This document shows positions 36,957 through 56,712 of a stretch of 64,000 nucleotides of DNA, one piece after another. The position numbers and the translations under genes were made by a program. The number at the start of each line of letters is the position of its first letter. The stretch's first letter is position 1. Below the pieces are notes generated by a model. That model did no database searches and was not told the DNA's origin. It saw nothing but the letters and a program-made list of their open reading frames with translations. Source of the stretch: Bosea sp. 124 (lineage in GTDB: Bacteria > Pseudomonadota > Alphaproteobacteria > Rhizobiales > Beijerinckiaceae); contig NZ_PZZM01000001.1 in assembly GCF_003046175.1 (NCBI RefSeq), positions 1,993,001 to 2,057,000 on the forward strand, in the 5' to 3' direction.

Positions 36957-36972
36957 GGCTTCACGTGAAACA
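36957..36972. other. parS-like site (14 of 16 bases) after pnp
   Basis: GGCTTCACGTGAAACA matches the alphaproteobacterial ParB-binding consensus TGTTTCACGTGAAACA at 14 of 16 positions, including the whole TTCACGTGAA core. It lies 20 bases after the pnp stop and 10.7 kb from the parS-like site in the origin gap. Confidence 0.6.
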
Positions 36973-45872: not shown

Positions 45873-46499
45873 TCAGCGGGCAAGCATGTCCAGATCGCGG
45901 AGCGCCGCGAGGACGTGAAAGAGCGGCAGGCCGAGAATGGTGAAGTGATCGCCCTCGACGCTTTCGAAGAGCTGGGCGCCAGGGCCTTCGATCTGGTAGC
46001 CCCCGACGCTTTCCAGAGCTGTCTCTCCGGCCTGACCGAGATAGCGCAGGATGAAGCCGGGCGAGAGGCTGCGCATCGTCAGGCGCGCAGTGCTGACACC
46101 CTCGACGATCGGCGACCCGTCCTGCGCCAGGACGAAGGCGCTGTGCAGTTCATGCGTCTTCCCGGCGAGCGCCGCAATCTGGTCGGCCGCGCCGGCAAGC
46201 GTGGCCGGCTTGTGGAAGGCGATGCCATCGCAGGTGAGGGTCTGGTCGGCACCGAGCACGAGACGTCCGGGTTTCGCTTGCGAGACGGCCAGAGCCTTGG
46301 CGCAGGCCAGAGCCGCCGCCACGGCATCGGGCGGTGACCCTTGCGCGAGCAGCGGCGCTTCGACGGCGCGCTCGTCGATCGCGGGTCTGACGATCTCGAC
46401 CGGAATGCCCGCCGCCCGCAGCATGTCGCGCCGGGTCGGGCTGCCCGAGGCCAGAAGCAAGGGCTCTGCCGCGAGCCAGAGCGTGGCACCGGTGATCAT
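45873..46499 (-). CDS. Maf-family nucleotide pyrophosphatase
   Basis: A 208-residue protein with the Maf motif [19 protein letters not shown], the substrate region LGADQTL and [10 protein letters not shown]. Maf proteins hydrolyse non-canonical or methylated nucleotides. The YceF-like branch prefers 7-methyl-GTP, but the exact specificity here is inferred. Its start overlaps the PPSR gene by four bases, which fits the conserved PPSR-maf-aroE-coaE order near the alphaproteobacterial origin. Confidence 0.92.
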
Positions 46500-47326
46500 G
46501 TCGCAATGAACTTCATGCGGTGGTCGCGCAGCAGATCGAGGATCGAGGCGGCCGTTTCCTCGATCGAGCGGCGCGTCACGTCGATCACCGGCCAGCCCTT
46601 GCGGGCGCAGAGTCGGCGCGACTGGGCGACTTCGTCGGCGACGGAGGCCGGATCGACATAGGGGGTTTCGTCATCTGCCTTGAGCGAGAGCAGCCGGTTC
46701 TGACGAATCTGGACGATGCGGTCGGCGCTGGCGACGAGGCCGACGATCAGCGGCTTTCGGACAAGCTCCAGTTCGGCTGGCAGCGGCACGTTGGGGACCA
46801 GTGGGATATTGGCGGTCTTGATGCCGCGATTGGCGAGATAGATCGAGGTCGGCGTCTTCGAGGTCCGGCTGATACCGACGAGGATGATGTCGGCGCTTTC
46901 GAGATCGCCACCGAGTTGGCCGTCATCATGCAGCAGCGTGTAGTTCATCGCATCGATGCGGCGGAAATACTCGGCGTTCAACACATGCTGGGCGCCGGGC
47001 TTCGGGGCCGAGGCCTGGCCGAGATAGGACTGGAACAGCGAGAGCACCGGCTGCAGCACCGACAGGCAAGGGCAGCCGAGCTCGCGACAGAAATTCTCCA
47101 AACGGGCTGACCATTCCGGCTCGACCAGAGTGTAGAGCACGACACCGGGCGAAGCCTCGATCTCCGCCAGCACGCGCGCGAGCTGCGCCTCAGAGCGTAC
47201 CAAAGGGTAGACATGCTCGATCGCCGAGACGGTCTCGTATTGCGCGGCTGCGGCGCGGCTGACCGCGATCAGGGTTTCGCCAGTCGCGTCCGAGACGAGA
47301 TGGAGATGGAAGTAGTTACGGGCCAC
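46496..47326 (-). CDS. Pyruvate,phosphate dikinase / PEP synthase regulatory protein (DUF299, PPSR)
   Basis: A 276-residue bifunctional kinase/pyrophosphorylase that turns PPDK or PEP synthase off and on by ADP-dependent phosphorylation. It has the N-terminal [13 protein letters not shown], the P-loop [11 protein letters not shown] and the end MKFIAT. GTG at 47326 is preceded by GGGAG at a suitable distance. It is the first gene leftward of the putative origin. The equivalent gene (RP001) flanks the origin in Rickettsia and Caulobacter, with hemE on the other side, as here. Confidence 0.93.
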
Positions 47327-47360
47327 GATGGCTCCCGGGTCGGTGCGGCGTCAGCCACCT

Positions 47361-47410
47361 CTAGAGCATGGCGCGAACAAGTGGGAACCGGTTTTTCGCT
47401 GAAGCCATGC
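47361..47410. repeat. Palindromic intergenic repeat, AGAGCAT type (copy 2)
   Basis: Outer arms GCATGGC (47366-47372) and GCCATGC (47404-47410) surround inner arms GCGAA/TTCGC around GTGGGAACCGG. It shares the AGAGCAT start and the GTGG...GGTTTT core with the element at 8661. It lies at the PPSR edge of the origin gap. Confidence 0.65.
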
Positions 47411-47518
47411 CCGGGCTTCGTGTCGACGCCGGGCCGGCAAGGCTGATCGGCTGACAGCGGAACGCCTGAGCCGAAGCCTCGACCCGAGGGCATCGACAGG
47501 GACGGGGCTGGGGAGCGC

Positions 47519-47527
47519 TGTGGACAA
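47519..47527. other. DnaA-box-like site
   Basis: TGTGGACAA, one mismatch from the classical TGTGGATAA box (reverse: TTGTCCACA). An identical 9-mer occurs at 47740-47748. Confidence 0.55.
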
Positions 47528-47613
47528 ACGGACGCGGCCGAGGGGCCGGCCGGCGGCTCTGTATAACCTTAAGATTCCGTCAACAGGCCGGACCCTGTGG
47601 GGAGGATCGGGAG

Positions 47614-47629
47614 TGTTTCACGTGAATCA
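47614..47629. other. parS-like ParB-binding site in the origin gap
   Basis: TGTTTCACGTGAATCA matches the alphaproteobacterial parS consensus TGTTTCACGTGAAACA at 15 of 16 positions. It lies inside the PPSR-hemE gap, 6.7 kb from the perfect site in rsmG. Confidence 0.75.
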
Positions 47630-47666
47630 TTTTGGCGGCATAGCGGTCCGCGCGGATTCCGATGGG

Positions 47667-47681
47667 TTAATAAACCGTTAA
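47667..47681. promoter_or_regulatory. CtrA-type binding box (TTAA-N7-TTAA)
   Basis: TTAA (47667-47670), seven bases TAAACCG, then TTAA (47678-47681) and C. This is the full consensus of the cell-cycle regulator CtrA, which in Caulobacter binds the origin to block initiation and also controls nearby promoters such as that of hemE. Confidence 0.6.
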
Positions 47682-47739
47682 CGGCTCCCGTCGCCTTGCC
47701 GCAGAGCACTCGCGGCGAACCTGCGACCTGTGGACCCGT

Positions 47740-47748
47740 TGTGGACAA
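47740..47748. other. DnaA-box-like site
   Basis: TGTGGACAA, identical to the box at 47519, with a weaker TGTGGACCC just before it (47729-47737), so two sites are spaced by one DNA turn (11 bases). Confidence 0.55.
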
Positions 47749-47840
47749 GCTTGCGCCGGGCTATCTGCCCCCCTCCAAGAGTCAAAGAAGAAGATTCTCT
47801 CTCAAGAATCATATTTAAGAGAGATCGGGATGGACGGCCG

Positions 47841-48896
47841 ATGAGCCCCGCGACACAGGACAGACCGGCCTTGGACAGACCTGCCTTTCTGCGAGCGCTA
47901 TCAGGCGAGGCGCTGCCGACACCACCCATCTGGATGATGCGGCAGGCTGGACGCTATCTGCCGGAATATCGCGCGCTTCGCGCCAAGGCCGGCAGCTTCC
48001 TGTCGCTGTGCTATAATCCGGAATGGGCCGCCGAGGTGACCCTGCAGCCGATCCGGCGTTTTGGTTTCGATGCGGCGATCCTGTTCTCCGATATCCTCGT
48101 CGTGCCTCAGGCGCTCGGGCAGAAGCTCTGGTTCGTCGAAGGCGAAGGTCCGCGGCTCGAGCCGGTCGCCGACGAAAGACGGCTTGGCGAGATTGAGGCG
48201 CAGGCGGATCAGGATGTGCTGGCGCCCGTCATCGAGACCGTCCGGCGTGTACGGGCTTCGCTGCCGCGGGAAACCACCTTCATCGGGTTCTGCGGGGCGC
48301 CCTGGACGGTTGCCACCTACATGGTTGCAGGACGGGGCACCCCTGATCAGGGACCGGCCAAGGCGCTGTTCGGGAGTGACCCGGCGCTGTTTCAGAAAAT
48401 CATCGACCGTATCGTCGACGCCTCGATCGACTATCTCGCCGCACAGATCGAGGCAGGGGTCGACGCCGTCCAGATTTTCGACAGCTGGGCCGGGTCGCTC
48501 GGGCCGGATGATTTCGAGCGCTGGTGCGTCACACCGACGCGCCGTTTGGTCGCGGGCGTAAGGGCGAGGCATCCGCAGGCTCGCATTATCGGGTTCCCGC
48601 GCGGGGCCGGCAGGCTGATCCCGCACTATGTCCAGGCCACGGGCGTCGATGCCGTCGGGCTCGAATCGGATATCGACCGGGCTTTTGCGCGCGACGAGAT
48701 CCAGTCGCTGGTGCCGGTCCAGGGCAATCTCGATCCGCTGGTGCTGCGTGCGGGCGGCCCCGAGCTGGAGCGCGAGGTCGCGGCGGTGCGCGAGGCCTTC
48801 GGCGCAGGGCCGTTCGTCTTCAATCTGGGTCACGGCATCCTGCCGGATACGCCGATCGCGCATGTCGAGCGCCTGCTCGCGGCCGTGAGAGCGTGA
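47841..48896 (+). CDS. hemE: Uroporphyrinogen decarboxylase
   Basis: Fifth-step heme-pathway enzyme converting uroporphyrinogen III to coproporphyrinogen III. The 351-residue protein shows the signature [31 protein letters not shown], and the C-terminal [16 protein letters not shown]. The ATG at 47841 is chosen. The frame opens earlier at 47730 but would cross origin elements. It reads rightward from the origin and is followed by hemJ. Confidence 0.96.
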
Positions 48897-48929
48897 GCAC
48901 CGGACGCCGAGTGAGGGAGCGGATTTTCG

Positions 48930-49569: not shown

Positions 49570-50835
<1,266 letters not shown>

Positions 50836-51036
50836 CGCGTCGGTTCAGGTTCCCTCGCCTGAGCCCATCGCCGTCGATTCGGACCCGTGACGGGTCGGGC
50901 GCCTCTGCCGGGCGTTTGTGAGCGCAAGCGAGCGAGTCATACCGGGTCGTACCACGGTGAACCGCAGCGAAGCCGTGATTCCTGGACGTGACGGGCGAAG
51001 GCCCCGTGCACAGGCATTCCCACCGCGAGCGCCGGT
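50836..51036. repeat. Intergenic gap rho-mnmE with degenerate palindromic repeat
   Basis: The 201-base gap has no gene. GACCCGTGACGGGTC (about 50881-50895) is a short palindrome, and 50936-50998 holds a diverged repeat beginning GAGTCATACCGGGTCG and running to GGACGTGACGGGCG. This resembles the GTCATTCCGGG elements elsewhere in the window. Confidence 0.4.
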
Positions 51037-52350
51037 ATGACCGAGTCCGACCCTTATCCGACCATTGTGGCGCTGTCATCGGCGGCTGGTCGTGCCGGCG
51101 TCGCGGTCGTCAGGGTCTCCGGACCGCGCGCCCGATTCGCACTCGAAACGATTGCGGGACTCGTGCCCAAGCCCCGTCAGGCGGTGCTGCGCCGGCTCCG
51201 CGATGATGCCGGCGAGGTCATCGACAATGCTCTGGTGCTGCATTTTCCCGGGCCGGCCAGCTTCACCGGCGAGGATATTGCCGAATTCCATGTCCATGGC
51301 GCGCGTGCCGTGCTGGCGCGTCTCCTCGCGGTGCTCTGCGCCCTGCCCGGCGTGAGGCTGGCGGAAGCCGGCGAATTCACCCGCCGTGCCTTCGAGGCCG
51401 GCAAGCTCGATCTCGCAGCCGTCGAGGGACTGGCCGACCTGATCGATTCGGAGACGGAATGGCAGCGTCGCCAGGCGTTGCGGCAGATGGAAGGGGCGCT
51501 GGGCCTATCCGTCGGGCGTTGGCGCCTGCGCCTCACCGAGGCGATGGCGTTGTTGGCGGCCGAGCTCGACTTCTCGGACGAGGGCGACGTCTCGGGGCCC
51601 CTGCTGGAGCAGGCTCAGGCGGTGAGTGCCGAGGTTCTCGCCGATCTGCGCTCGGCCCTCGGTAGCTTCGGAATGGGAGAGCGTGTCCGCGAGGGCTTCG
51701 TCGTCGTCCTGGCCGGACCGCCCAATGCCGGCAAGTCGAGCCTGCTGAACGCGCTGGCGAGACGGGATGTCGCGATCGTCTCGCCGGTCGCTGGCACGAC
51801 GCGGGATGCGATCGAGGTTAGGCTGGATCTGTCCGGTGTGCCGGTCGTGCTCGTCGATACGGCCGGCTTGCGGGAGAGTGCTGACCCGGTCGAGTCGGAG
51901 GGCGTGCGCCGGGCTCGCGCTTTCGTCGCGCGGGCAGATCTGGTCCTCAGTCTTCGTGCGTTCGATTCGGAGCCGGATCGAATCCATCATGATCCCGGTT
52001 CGATTGCGATTGCGACCAAGGCCGATCTTCCGGGCGTGGCACTGCCCGGGGAATTGCCGATCTCCGTCATGGCCGGAGACGGCCTCGATTTACTGCTCGC
52101 GACGATCGTCACGCGTCTCACGGCATTTGCCCAACCCGAGCCGGCCTTGCTGACGCGCGAGCGGCATCGCGCGGCGGTGACCGACGCGGTCGGGGCGCTG
52201 GAGCGCGCAGCGGCTGCGCGTCATGGTCAAGCGGAACTGCTCGCCGAGGATATCCGCCTCGCGGTTCTCGCGCTCGAACGGCTGATGGGGCGCATCGATG
52301 TCGAGGATGTGCTGGACCAGCTTTTCGCGGGGTTCTGCATCGGCAAGTGA
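51037..52350 (+). CDS. mnmE: MnmE (TrmE), tRNA modification GTPase
   Basis: With MnmG it builds cmnm5U34 at the wobble position of tRNAs. The 437-residue protein has the N-terminal folate-binding domain (SSAAGRAGVAVVRVSGP), an inserted G domain with PPNAGKSSLLNAL near 230, and ends with the catalytic FCIGK motif carrying the cysteine. Start ATG at 51037. It is the first gene of the conserved mnmE-mnmG-rsmG-parA-parB set. Confidence 0.97.
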   Translation: MTESDPYPTIVALSSAAGRAGVAVVRVSGPRARFALETIAGLVPKPRQAVLRRLRDDAGEVIDNALVLHFPGPASFTGEDIAEFHVHGARAVLARLLAVLCALPGVRLAEAGEFTRRAFEAGKLDLAAVEGLADLIDSETEWQRRQALRQMEGALGLSVGRWRLRLTEAMALLAAELDFSDEGDVSGPLLEQAQAVSAEVLADLRSALGSFGMGERVREGFVVVLAGPPNAGKSSLLNALARRDVAIVSPVAGTTRDAIEVRLDLSGVPVVLVDTAGLRESADPVESEGVRRARAFVARADLVLSLRAFDSEPDRIHHDPGSIAIATKADLPGVALPGELPISVMAGDGLDLLLATIVTRLTAFAQPEPALLTRERHRAAVTDAVGALERAAAARHGQAELLAEDIRLAVLALERLMGRIDVEDVLDQLFAGFCIGK

Positions 52351-54323: not shown

Positions 54324-54971
54324 GTGGCTGTTGATAATTCGGATCGCGGGCGCGCTTTACGCTTGACGCCTGTTTCACGTGAAACAGAAGAGCGTCTCGC
54401 GCTGCTGGTGTCGGAGCTGGCCCGCTGGCAGGCGGCGAAAAATCTGGTCTCCAGCGCGACCCTGACGGATGTCTGGACCCGTCATATCGCCGATTCGCTT
54501 CAACTCTGCGGACTGGCGCCCGAGGCGTCGCGTTGGCTCGATCTCGGTTCAGGCGGTGGATTCCCGGGCCTGGTCATCGGCATCTGCCTGGCGGAACAGC
54601 CGGGCGGCCGAATTGATCTGGTTGAGAGCAACAGCCGCAAATGTGCCTTCCTGCGTCATGCGGCGCGGCTGACTGGCGCGCCGGTGACGGTTCATGCCGC
54701 CCGGATCGACGATGTCATTGGTGATTTCGTGGGTCGCGTCGATGTGGTCACGGCCCGCGCGCTCGCGCCGCTGCCCCAGCTTCTGGAGTGGTGCAAAGAC
54801 CTGTTGAGAACCGGGACGCTCGGACTCTTTCCCAAGGGACAACATCTAGATACGGAATTGACCGAAGCCTCCAGATATTGGAAGATTCAGGCCTCAACGG
54901 TTTCCTCCGTCACGGATGGTGCCGCCCGGATCCTGATGGTCCGCGCGGCCGAGAAACGGGCCGATCAATGA
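54324..54971 (+). CDS. rsmG: RsmG (GidB), 16S rRNA m7G527 methyltransferase
   Basis: SAM-dependent methyltransferase modifying G527 of 16S rRNA. The 215-residue protein has motif I LDLGSGGGFPGLVIGI, the RHIADSLQL block and VTARALAPLPQLLEWC. GTG at 54324 follows the mnmG stop by four bases. A perfect parS site lies in codons 16-21 (PVSRETE region). Its stop overlaps the parA start by four bases (ATGA). Confidence 0.95.
   Translation: MAVDNSDRGRALRLTPVSRETEERLALLVSELARWQAAKNLVSSATLTDVWTRHIADSLQLCGLAPEASRWLDLGSGGGFPGLVIGICLAEQPGGRIDLVESNSRKCAFLRHAARLTGAPVTVHAARIDDVIGDFVGRVDVVTARALAPLPQLLEWCKDLLRTGTLGLFPKGQHLDTELTEASRYWKIQASTVSSVTDGAARILMVRAAEKRADQ
54371..54386. other. Perfect parS site inside rsmG
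   Basis: TGTTTCACGTGAAACA is identical to the ParB-binding consensus of Caulobacter and most alphaproteobacteria. It lies in the rsmG coding sequence, where it encodes part of PVSRETE. It is 597 bases before parA and 6.5-7 kb from the origin gap. Confidence 0.93.
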
Positions 54972-55798
54972 CCGATCTTACGCCTATCCCCATGCCGCGC
55001 CGGCCGCGCGTGCTGGCACTCGCGAATCAGAAGGGTGGCGTCGGCAAGACGACGACCGCGATCAATCTCGGCACGGCACTAGCGGCGATCGGCGAGAAGG
55101 TGCTGATCGTCGACCTTGATCCGCAAGGCAACGCCTCGACAGGGCTCGGCGTCGACCGAAAGAGCCGTAAATCCTCGACCTATGATGTGCTGTGCGGCGA
55201 TGTCGGGCTGGGGCAGGCGATGCAGGAGACGGCCGTTCCTGGGTTGTTCCTGGCGCCCTCCACGCTCGACCTGCTCGGTGTCGAGCTGGAGATCGCGGCC
55301 TCCAAGGATCGCGCCCATCGCCTGAAGAATGCGATCGACGAGCTGGTCTATGATCAGCGCTGCTCCGATCTGACCTATGTGCTGATCGATTGCCCGCCGT
55401 CGCTCAGCCTAATTACGATCAATGCGATGACGGCCGCGGACGCGGTTCTGGTTCCGCTGCAATGCGAGTTCTTCGCGCTCGAAGGTCTGAGCCAGTTGCT
55501 CAAGACGGTCGAGCAGGTGCGCGCCGGGCTCAACCCCCGCCTGATCATCCAGGGCGTTGTCTTGACGATGTATGACCCGCGCAACAATCTGTCGGGCCAG
55601 GTCATGGCCGATGTGCGGGAATTCCTCGGCGATAAGGTCTATGACACGGTGATTCCGCGGAATGTCCGTGTCTCGGAGGCGCCGTCCTATGGCAAGCCGG
55701 CGCTGCTGTATGATTTGCGGTGCTCCGGCTCGCAGGCCTATCTGAAGCTGGCCTCCGAGGTGATCCGGCGCGAGCGCGCGTTGCGCGCCGCCGCCTGA
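54968..55798 (+). CDS. parA: ParA, chromosome partitioning ATPase
   Basis: Walker-type partition ATPase that moves ParB-parS complexes, and so the origin, to the cell pole. The 276-residue protein has the deviant Walker A KGGVGKTT at residues 22-29 and DLDPQGNASTGLG, the switch region with LIDCPPSL and the C-terminal YGKPALLYD. It starts by ATGA overlap with rsmG. Confidence 0.96.
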   Translation: MTDLTPIPMPRRPRVLALANQKGGVGKTTTAINLGTALAAIGEKVLIVDLDPQGNASTGLGVDRKSRKSSTYDVLCGDVGLGQAMQETAVPGLFLAPSTLDLLGVELEIAASKDRAHRLKNAIDELVYDQRCSDLTYVLIDCPPSLSLITINAMTAADAVLVPLQCEFFALEGLSQLLKTVEQVRAGLNPRLIIQGVVLTMYDPRNNLSGQVMADVREFLGDKVYDTVIPRNVRVSEAPSYGKPALLYDLRCSGSQAYLKLASEVIRRERALRAAA

Positions 55799-55833
55799 GT
55801 TCGATTTGGCGTAGCGATTTGACGAGGATGGCG

Positions 55834-56712
55834 ATGGCCGAAGAACAGGGGCGTTCACGCCTGGGCCGGGGTCTGGCAGCGCTGATCGGCGATGTCGGCG
55901 AGGAAATCGGTGCGCTTGAGCGGGCCCGTGGCCAGCGTCGCGTGCCGGTCGAGTTCCTGCGGCCAAGTGCGCGCAATCCGCGCCGTAACTTCGCCGAGGG
56001 CGATCTGGAGGAGCTGACCGCCTCGGTGCGCGAGCGCGGCATTCTCCAGCCGATCATCGTGCGACCGATTGTCGGCATGCTCGATGCCTATGAGATCATC
56101 GCTGGCGAACGACGCTGGCGGGCGGCGCAACGGGCGGGTCTGCACGACGTTCCGGTCATCCTGGTCGAGGCCGATGACCGCGAGGCGCTCGAAATCGCGA
56201 TCGTCGAGAACGTCCAGCGGACGGATCTCAACGCGATCGAGGAAGCCGCGGGCTATGAGCGGCTGATCGCGGAGTTCAACTATACGCAGAATGATCTCGC
56301 CCGCGTCATCGGCAAGAGCCGCAGTCATGTCGCCAATACGCTGCGCCTGTCGAAGCTGCCGGAATCGGTTCGCCAGATGGTGAGCGATGGCGCCGTCTCG
56401 GCTGGCCATGCGCGTGCACTGCTGTCTGTTTCGGAACCGGAACTGATGGCGCGCAAGATCGTCGACGAGGGGCTGAGCGTCCGCGATATCGAGCGCATCG
56501 TCCAGGACGAGACGCGCGGCGAGAGCAAGGGCATCACCACGAAGCCGAAGCTCGACAAGGACCCGGATACGCGGGCAGTCGAGAAGGCTTTGGAAGAGGC
56601 GCTCGGCCTTTCCGTCTCGATCGTGCATCGCGCCAATGGCGGCGGTGACATGAAGATCAGCTACAAGACGCTGGAGCAGCTGGACGGGCTGTGCCGGCGG
56701 CTCAAGGACTGA
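55834..56712 (+). CDS. parB: ParB, centromere-binding CTPase
   Basis: Binds parS, loads as a CTP-dependent clamp and spreads along DNA. The 292-residue protein has the ParA-activating N-terminal basic motif SRLGRGLAALIGD, the CTP-binding motif GERRWRAAQ at 91-99, ENVQRTDLN, the helix-turn-helix GKSRSHVANTLRLSKL and a C-terminal dimer domain. The ATG at 55834 is preferred to the one at 55828 because GAGG precedes it by six bases. Confidence 0.96.
   Translation: MAEEQGRSRLGRGLAALIGDVGEEIGALERARGQRRVPVEFLRPSARNPRRNFAEGDLEELTASVRERGILQPIIVRPIVGMLDAYEIIAGERRWRAAQRAGLHDVPVILVEADDREALEIAIVENVQRTDLNAIEEAAGYERLIAEFNYTQNDLARVIGKSRSHVANTLRLSKLPESVRQMVSDGAVSAGHARALLSVSEPELMARKIVDEGLSVRDIERIVQDETRGESKGITTKPKLDKDPDTRAVEKALEEALGLSVSIVHRANGGGDMKISYKTLEQLDGLCRRLKD

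Follow-up and report, generated by a model that had tools for sequence, protein, structure and literature searches.

A parS site within the putative hemE/COG1806-type chromosomal origin of replication of Bosea

The origin of replication of Sinorhizobium is located near hemE. Origins flanked by hemE and a COG1806 gene and containing sites for DnaA, CtrA, and IHF have been described in Caulobacter and Rickettsia (PMC1914354). In Caulobacter crescentus, the origin Cori combines these flanking genes with DnaA boxes, CtrA sites, and an AT-rich stretch (PMC1914354). The centromere site parS is positioned approximately 8 kb from the origin in Caulobacter (PMC5815017), whereas in the Bosea chromosome described here it is inside the putative origin. 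When tested in E. coli, Caulobacter ParB extended over no more than approximately 2 kb around one parS (PMC5815017). The origin of Rickettsia prowazekii is also flanked by hemE and COG1806, and the passages describing it do not mention an embedded parS (PMC1914354).

Crosstalk between parS and the initiator of replication is known from chromosome II of Vibrio cholerae and from Caulobacter (PMC6399470, PMC4468827). In the rctA/parS2 region of V. cholerae chromosome II, parS is positioned amid replication-control sites by the origin, and ParB2 influences initiation (PMC6399470, PMC4468827). However, the initiator RctB is unrelated, the replicon is a secondary chromosome, and parS belongs to an adjacent locus. 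In Hyphomonas neptunium, parAB is approximately 7 kb from hemE, which is marked on the marker-frequency plot, and there are two perfect parS sites (PMC6650430); unlike in Bosea, these are upstream of parAB. The ParB complex around the four parS sites (parS1-4) of Pseudomonas aeruginosa is said to overlap oriC, although this is a gammaproteobacterium and the account of the overlap places no parS inside oriC (PMC10419367). Among the matches listed from non-subscription literature, no report of a parS inside the oriC of an alphaproteobacterial main chromosome was recognised in the text available.

The GANTC sites near the origin of Caulobacter are hemimethylated after replication until the methyltransferase CcrM acts late (PMC11514494). 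Methylation of GANTC has also been assayed at the parS locus of Caulobacter (PMC5172544). In secondary replicons, clusters of GANTC sites near parS or repABC loci have been noted (PMC9040568, PMC11514494).

Gene order and strand composition around the gap

The window analysed here is a stretch of 64,000 nucleotides, bases 1,993,001–2,057,000 of a complete, single-contig Bosea chromosome of 5,470,773 bases. It contains a 514-base gap between hemE and a PPSR gene of the COG1806 family, located at 2.040 Mb of the chromosome (Table 1). The G+C content of the gap is 62%. The gene dnaA is not at the gap and is located at 1.872 Mb. The gap is very probably an oriC of the type known from Caulobacter and Rickettsia. 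The broader account, in which the gap is the oriC of Bosea and doubles as a centromere, is held with high confidence and builds on gene order, the break in strand composition, sequence motifs, and their conservation.

The first-pass annotation had proposed the gap as a chromosomal origin on account of outward-reading flanking genes shared with the Caulobacter and Rickettsia origins, DnaA-box-like sites, a CtrA-type box, a cluster of GANTC sites, a parS-like site, and an AT-rich stretch. The gene orientations, the full CtrA-type box, the GANTC cluster, the parS-like site, and the AT-rich stretch are all present, and the flanking genes and types of boxes match those described for the two origins (PMC1914354). 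Composition breaks, conserved boxes, and flanking genes support the proposal. Two checks named in the annotation also agree with it: strand composition of this genome breaks approximately 1.5–11 kb from the gap, and the parS and CtrA-type sites, together with at least one copy of the proposed DnaA box, are kept in most of the core relatives.

The GC skew was fitted to a sample of 89 stretches of 20 kb together with the window. In the eight best two-arm fits, the origin, at which the skew switches from negative to positive, is at 2.03–2.05 Mb, and the terminus is at 4.52–4.54 Mb. The skew of the left arm is approximately zero and not negative. In each arm, most copies of the KOPS-like sequence GGGNAGGG point outward from the gap. 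When the window is excluded and the arms are set from the proposed origin, there are 119 forward and 38 reverse copies in the right arm, and 43 and 140 in the left. When the stretches are grouped in fives, the prevailing GGGNAGGG orientation changes sign near 2.05 Mb and again in the interval 4.5–4.9 Mb. The cumulative KOPS count, which assumes no arms, has its minimum in the window segment and its maximum at 4.65 Mb. The nine KOPS sites within the window do not resolve the place, with two forward and four reverse to the left of the gap, and one and two to the right. A pattern search of the genome for dif gave no match, and the terminus is therefore placed by composition only.

Within a contiguous 304 kb, the local change point of the GC skew is at 36.1–36.6 kb of the window, approximately 11 kb to the left of the gap. 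A score of six-base words has its change point at 45.8 kb, 1.5 kb to the left of the gap, when its 74 training stretches all lie at distances above 240 kb, or at 45.2 kb if the training includes stretches beside the window. Since the arm labels used in training come from the proposed origin, the score fixes the local place and does not prove the arms. The classifier assigns 43 of 44 right-arm stretches and 28 of 45 left-arm stretches to their own arm. A scan of the score over assumed origins is symmetric and thus cannot separate the origin from the terminus.

In a second complete Bosea genome (G011, 20 stretches), the skew is mosaic, and the forward and reverse KOPS counts are 21 and 19 in the right arm and 11 and 13 in the left. 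The word score of this genome jumps at hemE, from −4.9 and −0.6 to +23.1, and the next stretches (0–1.1 Mb) contradict a simple two-arm model. The mosaic GC skew and KOPS polarity suggest large inversions or an assembly fault.

Conserved DnaA, CtrA, and GANTC sites in the gap

Sixty genomes of the genus were searched, and the gap was readable in 57; left out were two with a partial or split hemE and one with a contig ending before PPSR. The divergent pair of PPSR and hemE is present in all 57, with gaps of 349–882 bp. Four of these genomes are deep-branching, and after the further removal of two with gaps near 880 bp, 51 were aligned. Blocks conserved in the alignment include TGTGGACAA, CTGTATAACC, CAACAG, parS and the sequence flanking it, the CtrA-type box, CTGTGGACC, TTGTGGAC, CAAGAGTCAAA, and AAGATTCTCTCT. 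In two relatives (L238 and L239, genomes G016 and G050), PPSR is 90% identical to that of the window, hemE approximately 58–59% identical, and the origin parS identical; hemE seems to have been displaced at this site while the origin gap was retained.

Table 1 Features of the gap and its surroundings in the window
Feature	Position	Strand	Remarks
Putative oriC, PPSR–hemE gap	47327..47840		Composition breaks and conserved blocks
PPSR (COG1806, DUF299, "RP001" family)	46496..47326	-	NCBIfam NF003742, 5.7e-102, above cut-off
hemE, uroporphyrinogen decarboxylase	47841..48896	+	TIGR01464, 3.3e-118, above cut-off
Dispersed repeat, 66 bp	47361..47426		Near left end of gap, outside conserved origin
DnaA-type box TTGTCCACA	47519..47527	-	Exact in 33/51 relatives, 1–2 bases different in remaining 18
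DnaA-like site TTATACAGA	47558..47566	-	One mismatch; within conserved block CTGTATAACC
parS TGTTTCACGTGAATCA	47614..47629	+	One mismatch; contains GANTC site GAATC (47624–47628)
GANTC (GATTC)	47655..47659		GATTCC in 22/51 relatives; at least 10 others have different GATTC forms
CtrA-type box TTAA-N7-TTAA, TTAATAAACCGTTAA	47667..47681	+	Motif in gap of 50/53 relatives
Conserved TGTGGA block CTGTGGACC	47728..47736	+	From alignment of relatives
DnaA-type box TTGTCCACA	47740..47748	-	Exact in 17/51 relatives
GANTC (GAGTC)	47779..47783		Kept in 45/51 relatives
AT-richest 40 bp	47786..47825		70% AT; possible unwinding stretch and/or hemE promoter
GANTC (GATTC)	47793..47797		A GANTC in 51/51 relatives
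Canonical parS TGTTTCACGTGAAACA	54371..54386		Inside rsmG reading frame, 6.8 kb from origin parS
parA, longest reading frame	54788..55798	+	ParA-type ATPase matches, below their cut-offs; true start probably further inside
parB	55828..56709	+	TIGR00180 parB_part, 2e-53, above cut-off

The exact DnaA-box pattern TTWTNCACA does not occur in the gap. With up to one mismatch, the whole window has 10 matches compared with 12.3 expected, which is at the level of chance, and such loose matching fails to single out the gap, as windows elsewhere also reach its count of three. The gap contains two TTGTCCACA boxes and weaker sites, which are conserved with variation. There are four copies of TTGTCCACA/TGTGGACAA in a genome sample of 1,844,000 bases, two of them inside the gap, and nowhere else in the sample do two fall within one 515-bp window. 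The first-pass annotation interpreted TGTGGACAA, which occurs at 47519 and 47740, as a lineage-specific DnaA box. This holds in part: TGTGGACAA is present at least once in 45 of the 53 core genomes of the genus, but twice in only seven, and conservation of the individual boxes is partial (Table 1).

Two short inverted repeats listed by the annotation are present in the sequence, but their right arms are not conserved (AGAATC in 9 and the AGAGAGA columns in 6 of the 51 relatives), and the repeats were set aside as a feature of the origin. The 66-bp dispersed repeat, which separates the conserved origin blocks from PPSR, is present in none of the 51 aligned relatives. Matches of 45–68 bp in this stretch were obtained for at least nine further locations in the genome, with 40 of 138 candidates scored. 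An Rfam scan of positions 46400–48900 gave a single match, which is below the gathering threshold (18.8 versus 59.8 bits, E = 0.43) and located over this repeat.

The gap contains one full TTAA-N7-TTAA box, whereas the Cori of Caulobacter has five CtrA sites; the box is one of eight in the 1,844,000-base sample. Six GANTC sites are present in the gap compared with 0.79 expected per 515 bp, and at least six occur in 39 of 35,980 overlapping 515-bp windows of the genome sample. The window as a whole is depleted in GANTC, with 138 sites compared with 361 in shuffled sequences. The methyltransferase CcrM bears a RAMA domain. The genome has one match to this domain, which Caulobacter alone has among 14 control genomes, and one GcrA. 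A second cluster of GANTC sites, seven in approximately 345 bp, surrounds the junction of rho and mnmE at 50818–51162. In two genomes of a sister genus (L264 and L265), two parS variants adjoin rho. The densest GANTC window of the genome sample is G000:C1:896351-896915, with 11 sites in 515 bp.

The arrangement of the motifs suggests how the origin may function. DnaA would bind the TGTGGA-type boxes on either side, the AT-rich stretch beside hemE would unwind, and two forks would depart in opposite directions. CtrA bound at the TTAA-N7-TTAA box would oppose initiation by repression, and methylation of the GANTC cluster by CcrM would mark the replication state.

The parS site inside the gap

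The parS site of the gap, TGTTTCACGTGAATCA, matches parS at 15 of 16 bases and is identical in 53 of the 57 readable genomes of the genus. The four genomes without it are the deep branch, in which PPSR has 73–77% identity. As is characteristic of chromosomal parS sites, it is a 16-bp palindrome (with one mismatch) near the origin, with parAB nearby. The genome contains four parS-like places with up to two mismatches, all within 81 kb at 2.030–2.110 Mb, and one of them is inside the gap; the reversed control of this search gave no matches. The perfect parS is 6.6–8.9 kb from the origin parS in 20 of 20 cases among the matches listed from 61 genomes searched. Another parS-like site, GGTTTCACGTGAATCA, at G000:C1:2110219-2110234, is 70 kb from the origin and also holds GAATC.

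A divergent pair of PPSR and hemE is present in 22 of 80 named loci examined, a set that may overlap with that of the sampled genomes. The gap contains parS in five of the 22, in which PPSR is 88–96% identical, and not in the other 17, in which PPSR is 54–70% identical. Of 30 further genomes of the family and order that were searched, 28 have PPSR, and none of these 28 gaps, 15 of them from the same family, contains a parS with up to two mismatches. Given this distribution, the origin parS was probably acquired once, in the main Bosea lineage. Judged by homology, ParB is likely to load at the parS between the DnaA boxes, and the origin would then also be a centromere. ParB may spread across the DnaA and CtrA sites, and crosstalk between ParB and DnaA would be predicted.

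The parS variant, its overlap with a CcrM site, and alternative explanations

Relative to the perfect parS, the origin site has a T at position 14, which creates GAATC. The sole deviation from the perfect parS thus makes a CcrM site. Across the order, the identical 16-mer is present in 161 of 397 genomes and 60 of 141 genera, and the reversed control gave none among the matches listed. Thirty loci with the 16-mer were read, three of them from Bosea. In a sample of 46 genomes of the order, 17 of the 35 one-mismatch parS sites among the matches listed are T variants of the TGTTTCACGTGAATCA type. The remaining ones have a change of the outermost base (14 sites), a different base at position 14 or at the mirror position (three), or a change at the centre (one). 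In a phylum sample of 299 genomes, the T variant is found in 15 of 38 genomes within the order, that of the window included, and in one of 213 beyond the alphaproteobacteria. All of the counts for the variant ignore shared ancestry.

The local break of GC skew near 36 kb and a weak parS-like site at 36957 raise the alternative that the gap is a divergent promoter region of hemE and PPSR with cell-cycle sites, and that the true origin is elsewhere within approximately 15 kb, for example at 36 kb of the window. However, the word score breaks at 45.8 kb and not at 36 kb, no DnaA-like match with up to one mismatch is present from 11.9 to 44.1 kb of the window, and the gene order and boxes of the gap fit known origins. 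This alternative is considered highly improbable, and the gap remains the preferred position of oriC. It is also conceivable, if unlikely, that the palindrome is bound by a regulator other than the chromosomal ParB, as it is one base off the perfect parS and that base is invariant in the genomes of the genus that have the site. In contrast, the near-complete match to parS, the clustering of the four parS-like places of the genome around parAB, and, for 23 of the 27 loci read outside Bosea, the position of the identical 16-mer next to gidA, rsmG, parA, mnmE, or rho favour recognition of the site by ParB.

The reason why T is kept at position 14 is a separate question, in which the balance tips slightly towards the explanation that the ParB of the order tolerates or prefers T and that GAATC is coincidental. 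The T variant occurs in none of 48 genomes of other alphaproteobacterial orders, counted whether or not a parS is present, which argues for an order-specific preference of ParB. Many alphaproteobacteria of other orders should have CcrM, and the absence of the variant from them speaks against CcrM alone as the cause. However, the genomes of the order are mostly G+C-rich, and yet changes at position 14 or its mirror are to T in 17 of 20 cases in the order, and those at position 14 in 20 of 22 in the phylum sample, in both among the matches listed. Furthermore, the T is identical at the origin in all 53 core genomes. Methylation control of the origin parS is speculative. A rather doubtful extension of it is that replication, methylation, and partition signals converge on the 16 bp, one half of which contains the CcrM site: parS would stay hemimethylated after the passage of the fork until CcrM acts late, the loading of ParB at the fresh origins would change, and the spreading of ParB over the DnaA and CtrA boxes would limit re-initiation. 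On the same doubtful reading, centromeres gated by methylation might be widespread in the order, where the GANTC-making change recurs in parS sites.

The type of origin is in itself already known, as expected for an alphaproteobacterium. The feature of Bosea that appears unusual at the level of the genus is a centromere site fixed inside oriC in nearly all of the relatives examined. The effect of ParB on initiation at main chromosomes is still being worked out, according to a review (PMC6399470), and a parS fixed in oriC across nearly the whole genus would be a natural system for such effects. The one parS variant that makes a CcrM site recurs across the order, and this offers a testable hint that partition may be sensitive to methylation.
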